Source of the DNA: Orenia metallireducens
GTDB lineage: Bacteria; Bacillota; Halanaerobiia; Halobacteroidales; Halobacteroidaceae
Reading direction: 5' to 3'
DNA: 64,000 bases
NCBI RefSeq assembly: GCF_001693735.1
Contig: NZ_LWDV01000010.1
Span: forward strand, 554,552-618,551
Under the pieces are notes generated by a model. The model saw only the letters and a program-made list of their open reading frames with translations. It ran no database searches and had not been told where the DNA came from. The position numbers were made by a program, and so were the translations under genes. Positions 34,017-50,400 of this stretch are shown here, piece after piece (position 1 is the stretch's first letter; each line of letters begins with the position of its first letter).

Positions 34017-35912
34017 TCAATACTTCAAGCGAAGGCTGAAATGAATATCATTCTCTAGTTGATCATATTCAATTCCAGTATTGAAGCAATCAAACTCTCT
34101 TGTTAAAGAGTATTTCAAAGTAGATAGTTCACTATCAATAAAATCATAGCCCGCCTCTACTTCTACATCCCAATAAGGGAATGCTAATTGATTAGTTTGG
34201 AAGTTATAACTTACAGTAACCTCATTATATAAGTCATCTCTTTCAACCTCTTCATCTTCAATAGGAGTTTCCCCTACAGTTCCTATATACTTATAGCCTA
34301 AACCGATACTATTAAATTCATTAATCTGATAAAAAGTCTTAGTATCAAATTGATAATAATTATAATCTTCTCTATTTTCATACTTACTATTACGAACCAG
34401 TGCATTCCATTTAAAATCTAAATTATCACTTAGCTTTAAATCACTCCCAATACTTGCCGTAAAATAATTTCTTTCTCCAATCTTTTGGTCTTCATCTGTT
34501 AATAAATCAAATTTAAAGGGAGTCTGTCCAAGTTCATCATAATATTGATAATCTAGATTAACATCGAGAAAAGCTATTTTTTGATCAATACCTAGATTAA
34601 AGTCATAGGTTTGGAAATCATCTCCTGTCCCATATTCAGACATAGATAATCCTCCATTCCAATAAAGATTAGTACTATCAGTTACTTTAACTTGACTATC
34701 CCTTAACCTCAAATCAATTTCTCTTTTAGATGTTTTAATATCAGTTTTTCTCTCATAAATATTTGCTATTCTAAGGTCTGTAGAGAATAAAGTTCCCTTT
34801 CCCAGATCTTTATCCTTAATCCCTAGAGAAAATTGTGGCTTATAGTCATATTCATTATCCTCTCCAGCTCGAAGCTGCCAATAATAATCTGACCACTTCT
34901 TATCAAAGGTAATCTCTTTTCCTGTCTCTAAATCATCTTCATCCCTTCTAAGGTGCAACCCAGATTTAACTCCAAAAATATCAGTAGTCAAATCCCACCT
35001 TGCTAACCATTCTTTTTCTTTATAATCTGGATCATCTTCATCATCTTCAATATAAGCATTATAACTAAGATTACTATTAATACCACCAAGCTTATTTATT
35101 AAATTAACACTACCATCTACACCTATCCCTTGCTCATAACTTAAATTAGGTCTAAACTGAAAGCTCTCACTTGGACTATAGTTATAATTTAAATCTAATT
35201 CATTCCCCTTCTTAGTTGTAGCCTTAAAATGAAGAGAACCTTCTAGATTTTCATCAACATAATGATCATAATTAACATCAAGATATGCTCCATCATTCCT
35301 ATTATATCCTAATTTAGGCTCAGGAATAGCATATTTTTTCCGCTCTACTGGATCTAAGCTCGTCGTATAGGTTGGTAGAGGCATAATCTTCTTACCCTTT
35401 ATCCATAAATAGACCCCTGTAGCAACAACTTTACCATCAGGATAGACCCTAATATTTTCAGCTGTTAATTTGTAATGGTAATCCTTATGGGTATGGTCAC
35501 CAGGAATTAATTCTGTCCCCTCCATAACCATCTCATCCTTTACAATATTAATCACCTTTCCTCTAAATGTAATACCCTCTTCCTTAGACTGAGCATTATA
35601 AAACTTTCCTTCTCCACTGATATAATCATATTCTAAGGCATCTCCAGAAACCTCTTGTTCCCCTTGAACTAAAAGAATGTTTCCTGAAGCTTTAATTATT
35701 TTGGTTATCAAATCAACTTCAACCTTATCAGCTCTAATAGAGTCCTCTTCCATTGTAATCAATACATTCTCTTCAGCTTGGATTATTTGAGATTCTTCAT
35801 CTAGCACCACAAATCCATCAGCACTGACTACAAAGGGAACTTCCTGATTAGCTTGTACAATTGGTGCACATAAAGCTGATATTAGTAATACAAAAAATAA
35901 TATTCTCTCCAA
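34017..35912 (-). CDS. lptD: LPS-assembly outer membrane protein LptD
   Basis: This protein would insert LPS into the outer leaflet. A signal peptide ends near residue 21 (VQANQ), an OstA/LptA-like jelly-roll domain spans about 28-190, and the rest is a beta-barrel rich in alternating aromatic residues ending FSLRLKY. At 631 residues it is shorter than E. coli LptD. Only one Cys (REFDCFN) is left after the signal peptide, so the disulfide pairs of proteobacterial LptD cannot form, and no lptE is visible. Start is TTG with AAAGGGTG seven bases upstream. It is a single-gene unit between two terminators, apart from the other lpt genes. Confidence 0.88.
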   Translation of the reverse strand: MERILFFVLLISALCAPIVQANQEVPFVVSADGFVVLDEESQIIQAEENVLITMEEDSIRADKVEVDLITKIIKASGNILLVQGEQEVSGDALEYDYISGEGKFYNAQSKEEGITFRGKVINIVKDEMVMEGTELIPGDHTHKDYHYKLTAENIRVYPDGKVVATGVYLWIKGKKIMPLPTYTTSLDPVERKKYAIPEPKLGYNRNDGAYLDVNYDHYVDENLEGSLHFKATTKKGNELDLNYNYSPSESFQFRPNLSYEQGIGVDGSVNLINKLGGINSNLSYNAYIEDDEDDPDYKEKEWLARWDLTTDIFGVKSGLHLRRDEDDLETGKEITFDKKWSDYYWQLRAGEDNEYDYKPQFSLGIKDKDLGKGTLFSTDLRIANIYERKTDIKTSKREIDLRLRDSQVKVTDSTNLYWNGGLSMSEYGTGDDFQTYDFNLGIDQKIAFLDVNLDYQYYDELGQTPFKFDLLTDEDQKIGERNYFTASIGSDLKLSDNLDFKWNALVRNSKYENREDYNYYQFDTKTFYQINEFNSIGLGYKYIGTVGETPIEDEEVERDDLYNEVTVSYNFQTNQLAFPYWDVEVEAGYDFIDSELSTLKYSLTREFDCFNTGIEYDQLENDIHFSLRLKY

Positions 35913-36103: not shown

Positions 36104-36141
36104 AAACCTACTTAAGTAGCATAAACTACCTAAGTAGGTTT
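36104..36141 (-). terminator. Strong terminator after the surface three-gene unit
   Basis: Sixteen-base arms (36126-36141 and 36104-36119) with a six-base loop pair throughout with one G-U, followed on the minus strand by TTTTTCTTTTTT. It ends the operon that begins at 41364. Confidence 0.88.
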
Positions 36142-36167: not shown

Positions 36168-37604
36168 TTAAAAATTCAATCTATATTTCAAAATTAAGTT
36201 CTTATATAAATAATTACTCGATTCTAAATAATGTTTTAGATTAAGACCTACTTCAAAACTATGCTTTTGATTAAATTCATAAAAGAGCATTTGCTTTAAA
36301 TTAATCCTTAAACCATATTTATCCTCTAACTCTAAAATTAAATTATAATCTATATCATTGAAAAAATTACGTTTATAATCTAACTTTAAACTATAATATC
36401 TTCTTAAACTACTATAACTTTTCCAGTTAATATTATAATCTAAGCTCAACCAATAATTAATAGCAGGATCATACTTAATAGAAATATTAGCTCCTTTTTC
36501 TATCAGTTCAAAACCACTAATCAAATAACTATCCTTGTTTTGACTTAGAGATAAATCATAGCTCCATTGATTACCTTCATAACTAAAAGCTAGGTTAGCC
36601 TTATCTTCTACAAAAGTATTAAGCATTGTAGCAGTTCTATATTCATTACTTCTATTATAGCTACCACTTAAAGCATAAACTCCATGATCATTTCCATAAT
36701 AATCGATATTAATCCCCAAGTCAAAATCTTTATTAATCCAGCTACTCTTCCTTGATAGATTATTTTCCTTGTATCCTAAATTGCTCCTTAGCAGATACCT
36801 TCCTAAATTCTTATAACCTTCTAAACTAATATTATATTTCCCATTCCCTGAATCAAATCTAGACTTAAGTGCTTCAAAATCAGCCGACTGATAATCTAAA
36901 TTAATAGTATAATCGATATCAAACAGATAGGAATTTAAATTCAAAGATACTGCTTCTCCTAACAAATCGTCTTCACTATTCTGTCCTATAATAGACTCTA
37001 AATATAAATCTAACTCATTTAAAGTATATCTATCAGCATAACTTAAATAATGATTCTTATCACCAGCTTCATCATTACTCAAACATCCTATCTTTCTACT
37101 ATTATTTTGCCAAAATACCCCCATCACTTGATTACTATTAATTCTAAATCCTGAGCTACTGCTATTAGTTCCATACCAGACTTGATAATTATCTTTTTTA
37201 AGGTGAACGCCTGATAAATCTCCTCCATATAAAAATTTAGAAACAGAAGGGACTGAAGTCATACCTAGACTTATTCTATTATCTCCTTGCCTTAGCTTAA
37301 AGAGATAGTTATCATAGTCCCAGTCTGTTTCATCTATGACTATTCCCTCTGTAAAAAAGTATCCCTTGTCCAAGTCCATTTGAAATTCAAGCTCATAATC
37401 CTTGGTATTTTGACTATAATCAAGGCTAATATACTCCAATATATTACTATTATATTCTCCTATATCTAACTTTAACATATAATAACTATTACTCTCTGCT
37501 CTCAGATTACAACTATAATTAATTACTATCAATATTACTAAAGTTAATACTATATTCAGTCTAGATACCACTTGCAGCCTGCACCCAATCTGGAGCAGCT
37601 TCAA
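36168..37604 (-). CDS. Exported protein of unknown function, probable outer-membrane beta-barrel
   Basis: I do not recognise this protein of up to 478 residues. It is rich in alternating hydrophobic/polar stretches with many Tyr, Asn and Asp, such as KYNISLEGYKNLGRYLL, and ends LKYRLNF, a final Phe as in outer-membrane barrels. No POTRA or plug domain is seen. The first ATG at 37604 puts eleven polar residues before the hydrophobic stretch; a GTG at 37571 would give a cleaner signal peptide (MVSRLNIVLTLVILIVINYS) but has a weak ribosome site. Either way the start lies inside the end of the lipoprotein gene, so the two are coupled. Function unknown. Confidence 0.6.
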   Translation of the reverse strand: MKLLQIGCRLQVVSRLNIVLTLVILIVINYSCNLRAESNSYYMLKLDIGEYNSNILEYISLDYSQNTKDYELEFQMDLDKGYFFTEGIVIDETDWDYDNYLFKLRQGDNRISLGMTSVPSVSKFLYGGDLSGVHLKKDNYQVWYGTNSSSSGFRINSNQVMGVFWQNNSRKIGCLSNDEAGDKNHYLSYADRYTLNELDLYLESIIGQNSEDDLLGEAVSLNLNSYLFDIDYTINLDYQSADFEALKSRFDSGNGKYNISLEGYKNLGRYLLRSNLGYKENNLSRKSSWINKDFDLGINIDYYGNDHGVYALSGSYNRSNEYRTATMLNTFVEDKANLAFSYEGNQWSYDLSLSQNKDSYLISGFELIEKGANISIKYDPAINYWLSLDYNINWKSYSSLRRYYSLKLDYKRNFFNDIDYNLILELEDKYGLRINLKQMLFYEFNQKHSFEVGLNLKHYLESSNYLYKNLILKYRLNF

Positions 37605-38328
37605 TCTGATCTACAGGAGCATCATCTACATCCAAATAATTGATTACCATACGATCAATCAACCATTCACCAGAAACTTTAGTAAATTGAAAAGTAACTG
37701 TTCCATAATCAGTAACCAAAGGTCCTATATCTTCATTCTGTTCATAGACCAAAAAGTATACTATGGCTTTAGCAGAATTTTGACTTTCTGGAATTACTTT
37801 TAAATTCTTTGACTCCACTCCATCCTTTAAGATTAGACTTGTCTTTAAATCCAAATCAATATTGTAATAATGTTTGTACTGATATTCTATATCACTTTTT
37901 AACTCTTCGCTGACGAGATAATATACTCCTAGATGGTAAACGCCTGGCTGTTTGATAAAGATAGAACCCATCTCTGTTAATTCATCTTCTAACTTATTAA
38001 AGTCTTTTTTATATTCAAGGTCATATTCACTCTCATAAATAGTCAATATCTGATAACCTTCATCATGATTACTATTGAACAACGACATAATATCTTCTAC
38101 AGTCCAATCATTTGCTGGATTCCAATTTACTCCCTCATTTTCTGTAGTCCAATTATCTCTAGGACTATCAAATTCATTATAAAGGAAGAAAGCTTCGATT
38201 TTATCAGCTACTGCTGCTGAAATTTCACCACTATTCTGTGTTGATTTGGTAGACTTGTCCGAAACTAAACATCCAGATAAACTTATAGCTAGCATAATTA
38301 AGAAGATCAATATCGATAACTTCTTCAT
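37561..38328 (-). CDS. Lipoprotein of unknown function
   Basis: A protein of 255 residues starting MKKLSILIFLIMLAISLSGC, a clear lipoprotein signal peptide with Cys20 as the lipid site. A low-complexity linker (SDKSTKSTQNSG) follows. The C-terminal third has VTFQFTKVSGEWLIDRMVI, a strand pattern like NTF2/SnoaL-type folds, but this is only a suggestion. It lies between the 1001-residue exported protein and the putative barrel, 30 bases from the first and overlapping the second. Periplasmic or surface display is possible; which membrane it sits in is unknown. Confidence 0.65.
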   Translation of the reverse strand: MKKLSILIFLIMLAISLSGCLVSDKSTKSTQNSGEISAAVADKIEAFFLYNEFDSPRDNWTTENEGVNWNPANDWTVEDIMSLFNSNHDEGYQILTIYESEYDLEYKKDFNKLEDELTEMGSIFIKQPGVYHLGVYYLVSEELKSDIEYQYKHYYNIDLDLKTSLILKDGVESKNLKVIPESQNSAKAIVYFLVYEQNEDIGPLVTDYGTVTFQFTKVSGEWLIDRMVINYLDVDDAPVDQIEAAPDWVQAASGI

Positions 38329-38358
38329 TACTTCCCCTCCTTTGTTCCCATATTACCT

Positions 38359-41300
38359 TTAATAAATTAATAAACGTCCAAACCCAAAACCTTTTCTAGG
38401 TGTTACTGTAAAGGATAATTCTTTAGCTGGAAGTTCACTATATTTATCTTCTGCTAAGACTGTTACCTTATGATTTCCACCCAAAAATGGGGTCTTAGCA
38501 AAGATGATAATTCTACTTACAACCTCATTTCCATCTTGAGTATTAGTAATCTTGCTAATATAGTAATCCTTTTTAGTCTCTGTTACTTGCTCTCCAGCTT
38601 CAATTATAGTTTTCTCATCAATCTTAACAGTTAAGCTTGTAAGCTTAATCTCTCTATTCTCTTTAAAATCAATTCTTATCGTTGAAGATTCATTAACACT
38701 TAATTTTTCTCCATCATTAATATTAAATTCTATATCTGCTACTACATTTTGATATTCAAATAAAGCTAGGAAGTTTATCAACCCTGATCCATTTCCCCAT
38801 TCATCTTGTATATCCATTTGTAAATTATATATACCATCAGCCAATGAAGATTTAGGTCTAAATTTAATAAGATAAACATTTTTGCCCTGATCTATCTCAT
38901 TTTTGATATCAGTCTGCATTGTAGCTGAAATATTAGTTGGAATTGAATCTACAGTTAGAGGAATTAATGAATTAAGTAACTCACCTGCTATCCCTCCACT
39001 CTCACCTTCCTTTACAAATTCTATATGTCTAAGATCAGTTATATTTGAAATATCACTAATAATAAGTTGGAATTGTGGAATTGCAGTATATATAACACCA
39101 AAGGTACCATTGCTTGTATCTTCTATAGTTGTTGTCTTAGAATTATAGTACTGAATATTACTTATAATCTGTGGAGCAGTTCCATCTACTTTGAATCTGA
39201 AGGCTTTAATTTGAGTTCGCTGCTCATCTAAAGTTATACCTGCACTCTCAAGTTGAGCCTTGATGTCACCTTCTATATCATTATTTGTACTATCTAAATT
39301 TATACTTTGAATCTCACTGATCAAGTCAGGACTTATCTGAATATCATCAGCTATAATTATTACCTCATAGGTCTCATCTTCAAGTGATGAAATTAAACTA
39401 GCTAAATCCTCCTCTATATAATCGGTCTTTTTATCTAAATTAGTCTTATATCTATAGGTCCATGGTTGTCCTACATCTGCACCTGACCTAATTTGATACC
39501 TCACTTCTTCAGAGTTATGAACATCAAAGTACAACTTACCTCCGTTAGTACTAATTACCTTATCAACCTGTTTATCTTTATTATCTTTCAAGGTTATATT
39601 GTTAATTATTGGTCTATTTTCATTAACCTCTAACATAAATGTAAAACCCGTAACTCCAGGGGTAAGTGTATCGGTATCATTTACATTTCCAGAGATGTCA
39701 GTAGCAGTAACTCTTATAACATATTTACCCTCTTTTAAAGTTCCATAAGGAAATATAGTAGCAGTCTTTGTATTTTCATTATAATCAATTACTCTAAAGT
39801 GTACATCTACTACTTGATCAAATTGATCATCTGTTTCATATAGATAGTCATTGACTATATCATCTATAACTCTATCATCATCTACCTTAACCCCTCTAGT
39901 ATTAATCAAATCTTCAGGTGTTAAAGAACCTCCTTCAAATCCTGAATAATTTTCACTAAAAGAAATTTTAATCTCTGGTTGGGAGTACTCTGCACTATTC
40001 GCTTTAACTATCTCAATTTTTTGACTATCAGTCGTTTGATTTAATATTTCTTTAAAGGAGACACCAGGAGTCACACCAATTACTTCAGGATCATCATCAA
40101 CATCTAAAGCAAAATAATAGGTATGATCTGTTGGAGTCTCTGCCCCAAAAGCAGATGCCTTCATTCTTACAGCTATAACATTAAGTTCAGTGCCAGCTGG
40201 TAACTTATTTAATTCTTCTGTAAAAGGAGTAATATTATCTATTTGCCAATTTGTCTTTGTTATTCTCTGATTTAATATACCTGCAATATCAGATCCACCA
40301 TCAATAGTCCTCCAAGTAGTATCTAAACTGATAGATCTATTTAAAGTATCAGGCTCAGTGTCTTGACTTGATCTAATAAATCGTTGATCAGCAATATCAG
40401 ATTGAGCAGTAACATCAACTATCAAATCTGATTTGTTTTTTAAGTAATAAACCTTACCCGGATCAAGAATTCCATACTGAAAGTGATTTTCAACCCTTAC
40501 ATCAATTCTAGGAGATGCGTAGGAAGACTTGATAGTAAATGTTGCTAATGTTGGACCTTGTTGACTACCAAGTCTAACCTCATAAGTATTATTGATTGGC
40601 ATATCACTAAAGAAACCATTTTTAAAAACGACCTTTCCATTAGATTCATCATACTCTATATCAGTACTACTATTCGCATCAGCCTCCAACAGGTCGTTAC
40701 TTGTATTAATAACGTAAATATTTGGAGCATCAGCACTGAATTGAAAGAGTATAGTAACATCATTACTATATCCTTCCAACCTGGCTTCAGGACGAAATTC
40801 AAACTTTCTAACGTCTACCTCTTTTACAATATGCCGTGGTCCAATCTCAAAATCAGTTACTTTCCCTTCAACAAATGTAGCTGTTACAGATTTATTACTA
40901 TCCATAAGGATATCGCCTTCTTGAGAGTTGATATCAAAATTAACATCCCCTCCCCAATGGTCAAATTCATAACCAGCATTGGCTACAGCTTTCAAATGTA
41001 GATTTGGATAAGTTCCTGTTACTTCTATCTCTCCATAATCAGTACTTGTGTTTAATTGATATTGCTCAGAATAAACTGCAGTGATAGTCTTATTACTATC
41101 CATAGTTATTGTTATAGGATTTGTAGTTCCTAAATTATTACCTAAATTATCTTCCCAGTGGCTAAATATATAAGCCGTATCAGGAGTAGCTGTTAACTCT
41201 ACATTAGTCCCATCAGGATAATCAGCTTGATTAGGGTTCTTAGTTACAGTACCATGATCAGAATTAACAGTTAGGCTAAAAGCAAAACTAGTTCCTGCAA

Positions 41301-41364
41301 AAACAAAAATAAATGTAAATATTAATAAAATACCAATAAATAATTTATTTATATATTTATTCAT
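38359..41364 (-). CDS. Large exported protein with InlB-like repeats and Ig-like domains
   Basis: The protein has 1001 residues and a signal peptide ending near GTSFA (28). Residues about 29-101 and 102-168 are two divergent InlB-type beta repeats (FSHWEDN, FDHWGGD, each ending in MDSNK then TAVY or TATF). The rest looks like a chain of Ig-like or cadherin-like beta domains, with VRVTATDISGNVND, FKVDGTAPQIISNIQYY and VTVLAEDKYSELPAKELSF. I see no Cys, no LPXTG, no SLH and no autotransporter barrel; the end is GFGFGRLLIY. It is first in a three-gene operon with a lipoprotein and a putative barrel. A surface adhesin or scaffold role is inferred. The start has GGAGGT upstream. Confidence 0.7.
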   Translation of the reverse strand: MNKYINKLFIGILLIFTFIFVFAGTSFAFSLTVNSDHGTVTKNPNQADYPDGTNVELTATPDTAYIFSHWEDNLGNNLGTTNPITITMDSNKTITAVYSEQYQLNTSTDYGEIEVTGTYPNLHLKAVANAGYEFDHWGGDVNFDINSQEGDILMDSNKSVTATFVEGKVTDFEIGPRHIVKEVDVRKFEFRPEARLEGYSNDVTILFQFSADAPNIYVINTSNDLLEADANSSTDIEYDESNGKVVFKNGFFSDMPINNTYEVRLGSQQGPTLATFTIKSSYASPRIDVRVENHFQYGILDPGKVYYLKNKSDLIVDVTAQSDIADQRFIRSSQDTEPDTLNRSISLDTTWRTIDGGSDIAGILNQRITKTNWQIDNITPFTEELNKLPAGTELNVIAVRMKASAFGAETPTDHTYYFALDVDDDPEVIGVTPGVSFKEILNQTTDSQKIEIVKANSAEYSQPEIKISFSENYSGFEGGSLTPEDLINTRGVKVDDDRVIDDIVNDYLYETDDQFDQVVDVHFRVIDYNENTKTATIFPYGTLKEGKYVIRVTATDISGNVNDTDTLTPGVTGFTFMLEVNENRPIINNITLKDNKDKQVDKVISTNGGKLYFDVHNSEEVRYQIRSGADVGQPWTYRYKTNLDKKTDYIEEDLASLISSLEDETYEVIIIADDIQISPDLISEIQSINLDSTNNDIEGDIKAQLESAGITLDEQRTQIKAFRFKVDGTAPQIISNIQYYNSKTTTIEDTSNGTFGVIYTAIPQFQLIISDISNITDLRHIEFVKEGESGGIAGELLNSLIPLTVDSIPTNISATMQTDIKNEIDQGKNVYLIKFRPKSSLADGIYNLQMDIQDEWGNGSGLINFLALFEYQNVVADIEFNINDGEKLSVNESSTIRIDFKENREIKLTSLTVKIDEKTIIEAGEQVTETKKDYYISKITNTQDGNEVVSRIIIFAKTPFLGGNHKVTVLAEDKYSELPAKELSFTVTPRKGFGFGRLLIY

Positions 41365-41584: not shown

Positions 41585-41616
41585 AAAAAGCTAAGTGGTT
41601 AACCACTTAGCTTTTT
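41585..41616 (-). terminator. Perfect 32-bp palindromic terminator, probably two-way
   Basis: Bases 41585-41600 are the exact reverse complement of 41601-41616. The G-C-containing stem is flanked by A and T runs so it could work on both strands. It ends the transcript of the small exported protein gene. Confidence 0.8.
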
Positions 41617-41623
41617 TATAAAC

Positions 41624-41914
41624 TCAATTAATTTGATAATAAATCCTTATCTTAGCACCTTCACCATACTCAAAATCAATAATACTAATCTTCTCTAATT
41701 CTACAATATTCTCTTCAGTAGATATATTTAGTTGAACTAATTTCTTCATAACAGTAGTTAAATTATCAAACTTCTCTTGACTTGCCAACTTTATCATTTC
41801 ACTCTCATCAACCTCTACTACCTTAGTATCTATTGTAACAGTTTCTGCCATAGCTAAAGGAGTATGCAAAGCCAAAATTACTAAAGCTAAACAGAGTATA
41901 AATAACTTCTTCAT
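41624..41914 (-). CDS. Small exported protein of unknown function
   Basis: A protein of 96 residues starting MKKLFILCLALVILALHTPL, with a signal peptide cleaved near AMA before ETVTIDTKVVEVD. The mature 73 residues are acidic, with a possible helix around 40-65 and two strands at the end (IIDFEYGEGAKIRIYYQIN). I do not recognise it. It is a single-gene unit between the terminator of the SLH porin gene and its own palindromic terminator, with GAGGAGGGG before the ATG. Periplasmic location is inferred. Confidence 0.7.
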   Translation of the reverse strand: MKKLFILCLALVILALHTPLAMAETVTIDTKVVEVDESEMIKLASQEKFDNLTTVMKKLVQLNISTEENIVELEKISIIDFEYGEGAKIRIYYQIN

Positions 41915-48832: not shown

Positions 48833-48866
48833 AAAGAGAACTAAGTGAATTCACTTAGTTCTCTTT
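48833..48866 (-). terminator. 34-bp perfect palindromic terminator over the yqgF stop
   Basis: Bases 48833-48849 are the exact reverse complement of 48850-48866. The yqgF stop at 48855 is inside the stem, and TTTTTCTTATG follows on the minus strand. It ends the Lpt-side operon. Confidence 0.85.
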
Positions 48867-49253
48867 ATTAAAGCTATTTAAATACCTTAAGACCAATATA
48901 ACAGCTACATAATCATCTACTGGTTCTGGAGGCATTTGCATTGTAATAGGGAGTAACCTTCTCCAACCCCTCCTAGGGTTATCCTGCCAATAATATTCTC
49001 TAGCTTCTAAAGTAGAGTGGGATTCATCAATTATATGAATATTTTTAAAGAGACCTTCTAGCTTAGAAGCTATATTGTTACTTTTAGTCCCATCTCCCAA
49101 GACAATCTCTTCAATATCATAGTCTTCTTTTAATACCTTTAGTTTATCTATAAGACTATTAGTTTTTATAACCTCTTTAAATCTAATATTTAGTTTTTGA
49201 TCTACAACTGCTAAGCCACACTTATCCTTTCCTGGGTCAATTCCGATTATCAT
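48855..49253 (-). CDS. YqgF/RuvX-like RNase H-fold protein
   Basis: A protein of 132 residues with the RNase H-like motifs in order: GIDPGKDKCGLAVVD with the first Asp, ESHSTLEAREYY with the middle acidic residue, and PEPVDDYVAVILVLRYL with the last. YqgF proteins are linked to pre-16S rRNA processing and Holliday-junction-like substrates. This copy differs from typical RuvX and follows a DUF3084 gene, overlapping it by 17 bases. The ATG at 49253 has AGGTG six bases upstream; GTG 49262 and ATG 49259 are alternatives. The tie to envelope genes is unexplained. Confidence 0.75.
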   Translation of the reverse strand: MIIGIDPGKDKCGLAVVDQKLNIRFKEVIKTNSLIDKLKVLKEDYDIEEIVLGDGTKSNNIASKLEGLFKNIHIIDESHSTLEAREYYWQDNPRRGWRRLLPITMQMPPEPVDDYVAVILVLRYLNSFNKEN

Positions 49254-50400
49254 TATCATCACCTGATATCTTAAATTCTATATTATCTCTTAGATTATCA
49301 CTACGCCAAATATCATCAATTGCTACTATTTCAATCTTGATAGATTTCTTTTCTAATAAAAGTTTATCTATTATTGGATAAAGACTAATCAAGCTAATTT
49401 CTCCTTCCTCAACCTCAGAATCAACTAATAACCCATCACTGATAACTTTTTTATTCAGACTATCTAGCAAGAGATACAACTCCCTTTCAATAGATGACAA
49501 GTCATCACTGGGTTGTATATTAGCCATTAGGATAGTATCTCCTTGATGGTAGACTTTATAATCTTCATAAAGATCAAAATTGATAGATAGCACTTCATCT
49601 TTGAAGGTATTCTTAGCACTTAATAATCTTAAAATAACTCTACCCTTCTTCTCTTTCAAAATATCATGCAACCTATTCAACTCTTGAATATTATATTCAA
49701 GAATTTCTTTATTATCTTTAATCTCAATACCTGCTTGCCTAGCAAGCCTATCTGCTTCTTCTAATAAGTTATCAACCTTATTCTCTATCTTATCTGAGGA
49801 TTCTTCTAAATCTATTGATTCTTCAATTATAATCTCACCCTTTTGATAGACAATATCACCAGTCAATGAAGATAAGTATCTTCTACCAAATAGACTGATA
49901 TTATAGGCTAAATTATCAACCTGTTCAGTTAAAGAACTTTTTTGTAAAGTTAACTTCTCCACTTTATCCTCTAACTCTAGTTTACTCTCTTGAACAACTT
50001 GATATTCTTTCTTCAACTTTGTTAAATTTGATTCTAAAACATCTTTATCCTCTTGTAAGATAAGCAAATCGCTAACCTTCTTCTCAATATCACTTCGTAA
50101 CCCTAATAATTCATTATTTTTAGATACTAAACTCTGATTTAAAGCTGATAAACGCTCTAGCATTGCTTCCATATCAAATAAGGCCATTCGAACATCCTTA
50201 GAAGCTCCCATTAAAAGTAATAGAGAAGCCAGAGCAATTAAGATACCTGTACCTACAGTAATCACTATCGAAGTATGCTTAGGACGCAATCCAAAGAGGG
50301 ATAACCTCTTCTTTCCTATCTTCATTCCAATCTTATCACCAACATAAGCTATAGTTCCTGCTACAATAACTAGAGCCAACAATAATTTTATTCCATACAT
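49237..50400 (-). CDS. DUF3084 membrane coiled-coil protein
   Basis: A protein of 387 residues with two N-terminal membrane segments (about 3-22 and 44-66) flanking the DUF3084 signature IGKKRLSLFGLRPKHTSIV. A long coiled coil spans about 80-170, then a mixed alpha/beta C-terminal part. DUF3084 proteins occur in cyanobacteria and diderm Firmicutes; their role is not established. It begins 190 bases after lptF/G and overlaps the YqgF-like gene, so it may work with the LPS transport proteins or in wall-membrane spacing. That is inference. Confidence 0.75.
   Translation of the reverse strand: MYGIKLLLALVIVAGTIAYVGDKIGMKIGKKRLSLFGLRPKHTSIVITVGTGILIALASLLLLMGASKDVRMALFDMEAMLERLSALNQSLVSKNNELLGLRSDIEKKVSDLLILQEDKDVLESNLTKLKKEYQVVQESKLELEDKVEKLTLQKSSLTEQVDNLAYNISLFGRRYLSSLTGDIVYQKGEIIIEESIDLEESSDKIENKVDNLLEEADRLARQAGIEIKDNKEILEYNIQELNRLHDILKEKKGRVILRLLSAKNTFKDEVLSINFDLYEDYKVYHQGDTILMANIQPSDDLSSIERELYLLLDSLNKKVISDGLLVDSEVEEGEISLISLYPIIDKLLLEKKSIKIEIVAIDDIWRSDNLRDNIEFKISGDDNDNRN

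Follow-up and report, generated by a model that had tools for sequence, protein, structure and literature searches.

A family-restricted trio of genes beside an lptD-like gene in Orenia metallireducens encodes an Ig-like exported protein, a lipoprotein and a predicted 26-strand barrel and may form an outer-membrane display system

The giant Ig-like adhesin SiiE is exported by a type I system, and MtrB, the barrel of a porin-cytochrome conduit, is composed of 26 strands and has a lumen that is filled by a partner protein and is not used for secretion. In the chaperone-usher systems, the barrel of FimD is composed of 24 strands surrounding an open pore of 44 × 36 Å, through which folded pilins of ~20–25 Å are passed (PMC11459180). 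In the diderm Firmicutes, outer-membrane biology is poorly known, and little is settled about how surface proteins are carried to the far side of the outer membrane. Here, we describe a trio of genes that is located in a 64,000-nucleotide stretch of Orenia metallireducens DNA, which we refer to as the window, and that encodes a large Ig-like exported protein (the big protein), a lipoprotein and an outer-membrane barrel.

The trio lies on the minus strand in the order big protein, lipoprotein and barrel, followed by a terminator-like stem and then by the lptD-like gene (Table 1). The genes of the big protein and the lipoprotein are separated by 30 bp, the open reading frames of the lipoprotein and the barrel overlap, and a second terminator-like stem parts the trio from the gene of a small exported protein. 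It is well supported that the trio constitutes a tight unit between the two stems. An earlier note, made from the letters of the window, had proposed a single transcription unit ended by a terminator, with overlapping lipoprotein and barrel genes, and both proposals stand. The same note had used a longer reading frame for the barrel, starting at TTG 37604; the start is probably GTG 37568 instead, because a compact signal peptide results from it.

Table 1. Features of the trio and its surroundings, given as positions in the window
Feature	Coordinates	Strand	Basis or remark
Large Ig-like exported protein, 1001 aa	38359..41364	-	ORF list, Pfam, profile search
C-terminal motif RxGFGFGRLL(I) of the big protein	38362..38397	-	GFGFGRL at 38371-38391
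Lipoprotein with LSGC lipobox (38269-38280)	37561..38328	-	Predicted NTF2-like globular domain
Outer-membrane barrel, 466 aa	36168..37568	-	AlphaFold2 model, 26 strands counted
Terminator-like stem at the end of the trio (36141-36104)	36104..36141	-	17 pairs, then T-run
Terminator-like stem upstream of the trio (41616-41585)	41585..41616	-	With T-run
LptD-like protein, neighbour outside the trio	34017..35912	-	OstA-type N-terminal domain; C-terminal barrel-like region with a conserved DC motif at its end
Exported protein, 96 aa, loosely linked neighbour	41624..41914	-	

The product of the 36168 gene is predicted by AlphaFold2 to fold into a barrel with high confidence (pLDDT 86.6, pTM 0.72), and its C-terminal residue is Phe in 8/8 members. 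This agrees with the earlier description of a putative outer-membrane barrel ending in Phe; a soluble, non-barrel fold, which that description had set against itself, is not what is predicted. The count of 26 strands is taken from the DSSP list, with one five-residue strand left out. As the first strand begins ~4 residues past the signal peptide and the last strand ends at the C terminus, there is no room for a POTRA or other soluble domain. No Pfam family is matched by any of the eight members, and the Usher, POTRA and MtrB_PioB profiles in particular are unmatched (MtrB_PioB at E up to 1). The model contains neither a plug of the usher type nor the N- and C-terminal soluble domains of ushers, and the barrel lacks the OstA/LptD_N periplasmic domain that is present in the neighbouring LptD-like protein. 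A small internal plug between the strands is possible in the model, and part of the region of strands 5–10, which displays weak alternation, could fold inward as a gate.

Structural comparisons place MtrB as the best match (6r2q_B, Z 17.2, 403 residues aligned, 5.2 Å). The PapC and FimD ushers come next, with Z of 13–16 over 335–370 residues (3.5 Å over 335 residues for 9fxb_D), and many other barrels are matched as well. These matches to MtrB and the ushers are read as the resemblance of one large barrel to another, and are no proof of relationship. The barrel of FimD, which passes folded pilins, has 24 strands, and the predicted 26-strand barrel of the trio would be expected to be at least as wide.

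The big protein is composed of a signal peptide, two InlB B-repeats at approximately residues 30–166 (Pfam Flg_new_2, E 8.6e-22), a string of Ig-like domains and the C-terminal RKGFGFGRLLIY, and is devoid of cysteines; the earlier reading of a 1001-residue, cysteine-free protein with two InlB repeats and Ig-like domains is thus borne out. A Big_13 Ig-like match is found in 8/8 members (best E 7e-10), and the profile of the family matches the Ig-like structure of SiiE, 2yn3 (E 7.8e-08). The InlB repeats are present in five of the eight members and missing from the other three. A separate open frame of 3704 codons with at least 10 InlB-type repeats is found in a congener (G011:C7:427224-432608) and encodes a probable giant surface protein.

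Between genera, the identity of the big protein is often only 23–43%. In the eight-member alignment, the sole seven-residue window that is fully conserved is GFGFGRL (identity of 1.0 versus a mean of 0.26), the next-best window reaching 0.735. A codon-degenerate DNA pattern for GFGFGRL occurs exactly once per genome in 8/8 family genomes, each time where the big gene ends, and does not occur in five sister-family genomes; the reversed pattern, which served as the control, has two occurrences in the 13 genomes. With one occurrence per genome, always at this position, GFGFGRL is the signature of one protein, and a general sorting tag carried by many proteins is ruled out. Searches of the trio proteins returned no family match to C-terminal sorting signals of the type I, T9SS or sortase kind, the conserved end being GFGFGRLLI, and Pfam identified no autotransporter domain in the big protein, the last part of which is Ig-like. 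Since the tail is invariant on an otherwise fast-evolving protein, this C terminus of alternating Gly and Phe is best read, from the alignment, as a docking or recognition element. A variable N terminus combined with a fixed C terminus is as expected for a protein with one end exposed and the other anchored.

Docking of this kind would also suit a static envelope complex, with the barrel serving as a porin or scaffold instead of translocating the Ig-like protein, and with the C-terminal motif of that protein plugging into or holding the barrel-lipoprotein pair. The Ig-like protein would then be periplasmic, or would reach the surface by another route, and could serve, e.g., as a spacer, a tether or a partner in nutrient capture. 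The top fold match, MtrB, is itself a 26-strand barrel with a partner-filled lumen and no secretion role, SLH porins adjoin the trio in the window, and the conserved C terminus fits periplasmic docking as well as it fits arrest in a pore. However, the variable N-terminal InlB repeats resemble surface-exposed modules, and docking alone would not call for a barrel of a width that admits folded Ig domains. We consider a static complex rather unlikely.

The LSGC lipobox, by which the earlier note had recognised the second gene product as a lipoprotein, is invariant in all eight relatives. Among the fold matches listed for the AlphaFold2 model of the lipoprotein, almost all have an NTF2-like or cystatin-like fold, and the best of them aligns over 124 residues (Z 11.6). 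With a pLDDT of 66.6 for the model, the NTF2-like fold is assigned with moderate confidence. Pfam matches to SnoaL_4 and tRNA_anti-like are below threshold.

Links within the trio were probed by rate covariation, computed from pairwise distances in eight genomes in six tests with lptD and waaA controlled. In this small sample, weak covariation is observed between the last Ig domain and the lipoprotein (partial r 0.54, p 0.007) and between the lipoprotein and the barrel (partial r 0.42, p 0.023). Over the same eight genomes, the N-terminal part of the big protein displays no covariation with the lipoprotein (-0.13), and the two halves of the big protein, which constitute the positive control, yield 0.45 (p 0.012). 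Coming from eight genomes and six tests, these values agree weakly with a chain that would run from the tail of the big protein through the lipoprotein to the barrel.

In 8/8 genomes of the salt-loving family (Orenia and relatives), the trio is single-copy and syntenic, with the same order and strand, with gaps of at most ~32 bp or overlaps between the genes, and with the lptD-like gene beside it. This recurrence is more than chance. A search for the barrel across the order returned 8/8 family genomes and 0/5 sister-family genomes, and among 398 genomes of the phylum the trio barrel was not found outside its own family. Matches covering most of the big protein are confined to these eight genomes, as are those to the lipoprotein apart from one further weak match that spans just the N-terminal 70 residues. 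A wider contig scan found only Orenia metallireducens, a plasmid search for the distribution of the trio found nothing, and matches to PHROGs are all below threshold. The joint conservation for which the earlier note had called is therefore observed, with the same gene order in every family genome. The note had suggested looking for it across the diderm Firmicutes, but the trio is confined to one family, and other families have an unrelated pair of genes in the slot upstream of the lptD-like gene.

The three genes could be mere neighbours, each acting separately at the outer membrane from within a large envelope gene cluster, and the whole region is indeed an outer-membrane gene cluster with an order that is common across the class (PMC5007114). 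Against this, the three genes, which overlap or nearly do so, are either all present or all absent across 59 class genomes, and the trio is kept together even where flanking genes have moved (the g5 genomes). In two of the eight genomes, the trio and lptD are separated by other ORFs, and at least one of these two (L048) also has unrelated genes that part the trio from the small exported gene; the trio is intact in both. Separate action of the three proteins is accordingly judged very unlikely. The small exported protein is encoded near the trio in 7/8 family genomes and has no Pfam match.

The LptD-like protein that is encoded next to the trio has relatives in 56 of the 59 class genomes; an earlier study reported neither LptD nor LptE in Halanaerobiales (PMC5007114). 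In the LptD-like protein of the window and of Orenia metallireducens, an N-terminal Cys that is otherwise conserved has been lost, and the C-terminal Cys has been kept. A second OstA protein of the same genome, with 921 aa and an LptC/OstA-like N-terminal region, is encoded ~10 kb beyond the window beside two LptF/G-like genes (L116:3187-5952). Elsewhere in the window, a RuvX/YqgF-like protein with a nuclease-like fold (48855-49262) is encoded beside an SLH porin and a DUF3084 protein, an arrangement shared by most of the class genomes that were examined.

The slot that separates the SLH porin from the lptD-like gene is filled, in the sister family and several further families of this class, by the pair A7, a barrel of ~370 aa, and A6, an exported protein of ~315 aa; examples upstream of lptD-like genes are L111:5496-7571, L113:10989-12933 and L133:8138-10645. 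The pair is possibly a set of companions of LptD, and A6 is found in 85 of the 398 phylum genomes. As a candidate homologue of the trio the pair was rejected, as the profile comparisons aligned nothing beyond signal peptides or stretches without significance. Judged by searches of the eight trio genomes, the trio family has lost the pair that is held elsewhere in the diderm Firmicutes, the exceptions being a partial A6-like match in one trio genome (150 residues of 318, in G011) and a marginal A7 match in another. Loss of the pair in exactly the family that bears the trio would constitute a natural experiment on the role of the pair.

Because the trio occupies the slot of this LptD-associated pair, it may be asked whether the trio replaces the ancestral companions of the LptD-like protein, with a function in the export of LPS or in building the outer membrane, and with the lipoprotein perhaps as an LptE-like plug. 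In addition to the shared slot, which in other families also holds a barrel and an exported protein, and the absence of the pair from the eight trio genomes, such a replacement is consistent with the gene order in Veillonella parvula, in which lptD follows two uncharacterised outer-membrane genes that were suggested to be LptE equivalents (PMC5491611). The trio, however, is a separate transcription unit, and its own terminator and independent mobility, seen in the two genomes with intervening ORFs, speak against a tight link with lptD. There is no sequence homology between the pair and the trio, and known LPS export has no role for a 1001-aa Ig-like protein. LptE itself is not known to be NTF2-like. 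A function of the trio in LPS export is thus unlikely.

We tentatively favour, at somewhat less than an even chance, a dedicated outer-membrane display system for one substrate, for which we infer passage through the barrel, orientation and docking as follows. Sec export would carry the Ig-like protein into the periplasm, the 26-strand barrel would provide a wide pore, and the NTF2-like lipoprotein, anchored in the outer membrane, would act as the periplasmic plug or adaptor of this pore. The Ig-like protein would thread the barrel so that the variable N-terminal part, with the InlB and Ig modules, faces out, and the GFGFGRLLI stretch and the last Ig-like domain would stay docked to the lipoprotein and the barrel, retaining the protein at the outer membrane. 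In favour of such a display system, a candidate substrate, the string of Ig-like domains, is encoded beside a wide, usher-like barrel. Against it, the trio unit contains no chaperone gene, neither a source of energy for export nor a mechanism of assembly is apparent, and lumen-facing residues, with facing assigned by hydropathy, are poorly conserved in strands 14–26 (0.17 versus 0.32 in strands 1–13).

A fuller version of the display system is more doubtful. It holds that a plug-free barrel and an NTF2-like lipoprotein form a new secretion or display system whose one Ig substrate is recognised and retained by GFGFGRL, and that this system took over the place of the ancestral LptD companions in a single family of the diderm Firmicutes. 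Should the trio move or hold a chain of Ig-like domains, it would be the simplest display system with a large pore so far described, having neither POTRA nor plug nor chaperone.

The earlier note had seen no POTRA, autotransporter, SLH or sortase signal in the three proteins and no fit to a described secretion system, and the family searches, in which none of these families, nor the usher family, was matched, lead to the same view. Two-partner secretion (TpsA/TpsB) resembles the trio in that a large exported protein is encoded beside an outer-membrane barrel, but the trio has no POTRA or TPS domain, a barrel of 26 rather than 16 strands, and an additional lipoprotein. In the autotransporters (type V), passenger and barrel are one protein, unlike in the trio. 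The Ig-like repeats of the big protein are similar in sequence to those of the SiiE-type giant adhesins, as the 2yn3 match shows, whereas the trio unit has no gene for an ABC exporter or a membrane fusion protein, and none for a type I C-terminal signal.

LptD-LptE likewise combines a 26-strand barrel with an outer-membrane lipoprotein, and the trio adjoins an lptD-like gene. The main differences are that the trio barrel has no OstA domain, that its lipoprotein is predicted to be NTF2-like, and that an Ig-like protein is added. The trio barrel was also considered as a homologue of the neighbouring LptD-like barrel, and this was rejected, as profile comparison of the two families gave no significant match. 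The MtrB/PioB conduit provides the best structural match, a barrel that likewise has 26 strands and no soluble domains and that pairs with partner proteins; it differs in that the trio barrel has no sequence match to this family and that no CXXCH haem motif is present in any trio protein. The role in haem binding or electron transfer that the MtrB match had suggested was rejected on the latter ground.

By the tests made, i.e., family profiles, domain layout and haem motifs, the trio falls outside the chaperone-usher, two-partner, autotransporter, LptD and MtrB systems. The chaperone-usher systems (PapC, FimD) share with it a wide barrel of usher-like fold (Z 13–16) and an Ig-like partner. The trio barrel, however, has 26 strands compared with 24 in the ushers, lacks the plug and the N- and C-terminal domains, and matches no usher family; no chaperone gene accompanies it, and its substrate would be one long protein in place of pilin subunits. 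By analogy of fold and size, in which the resemblance consists, the trio may work like an usher pore.
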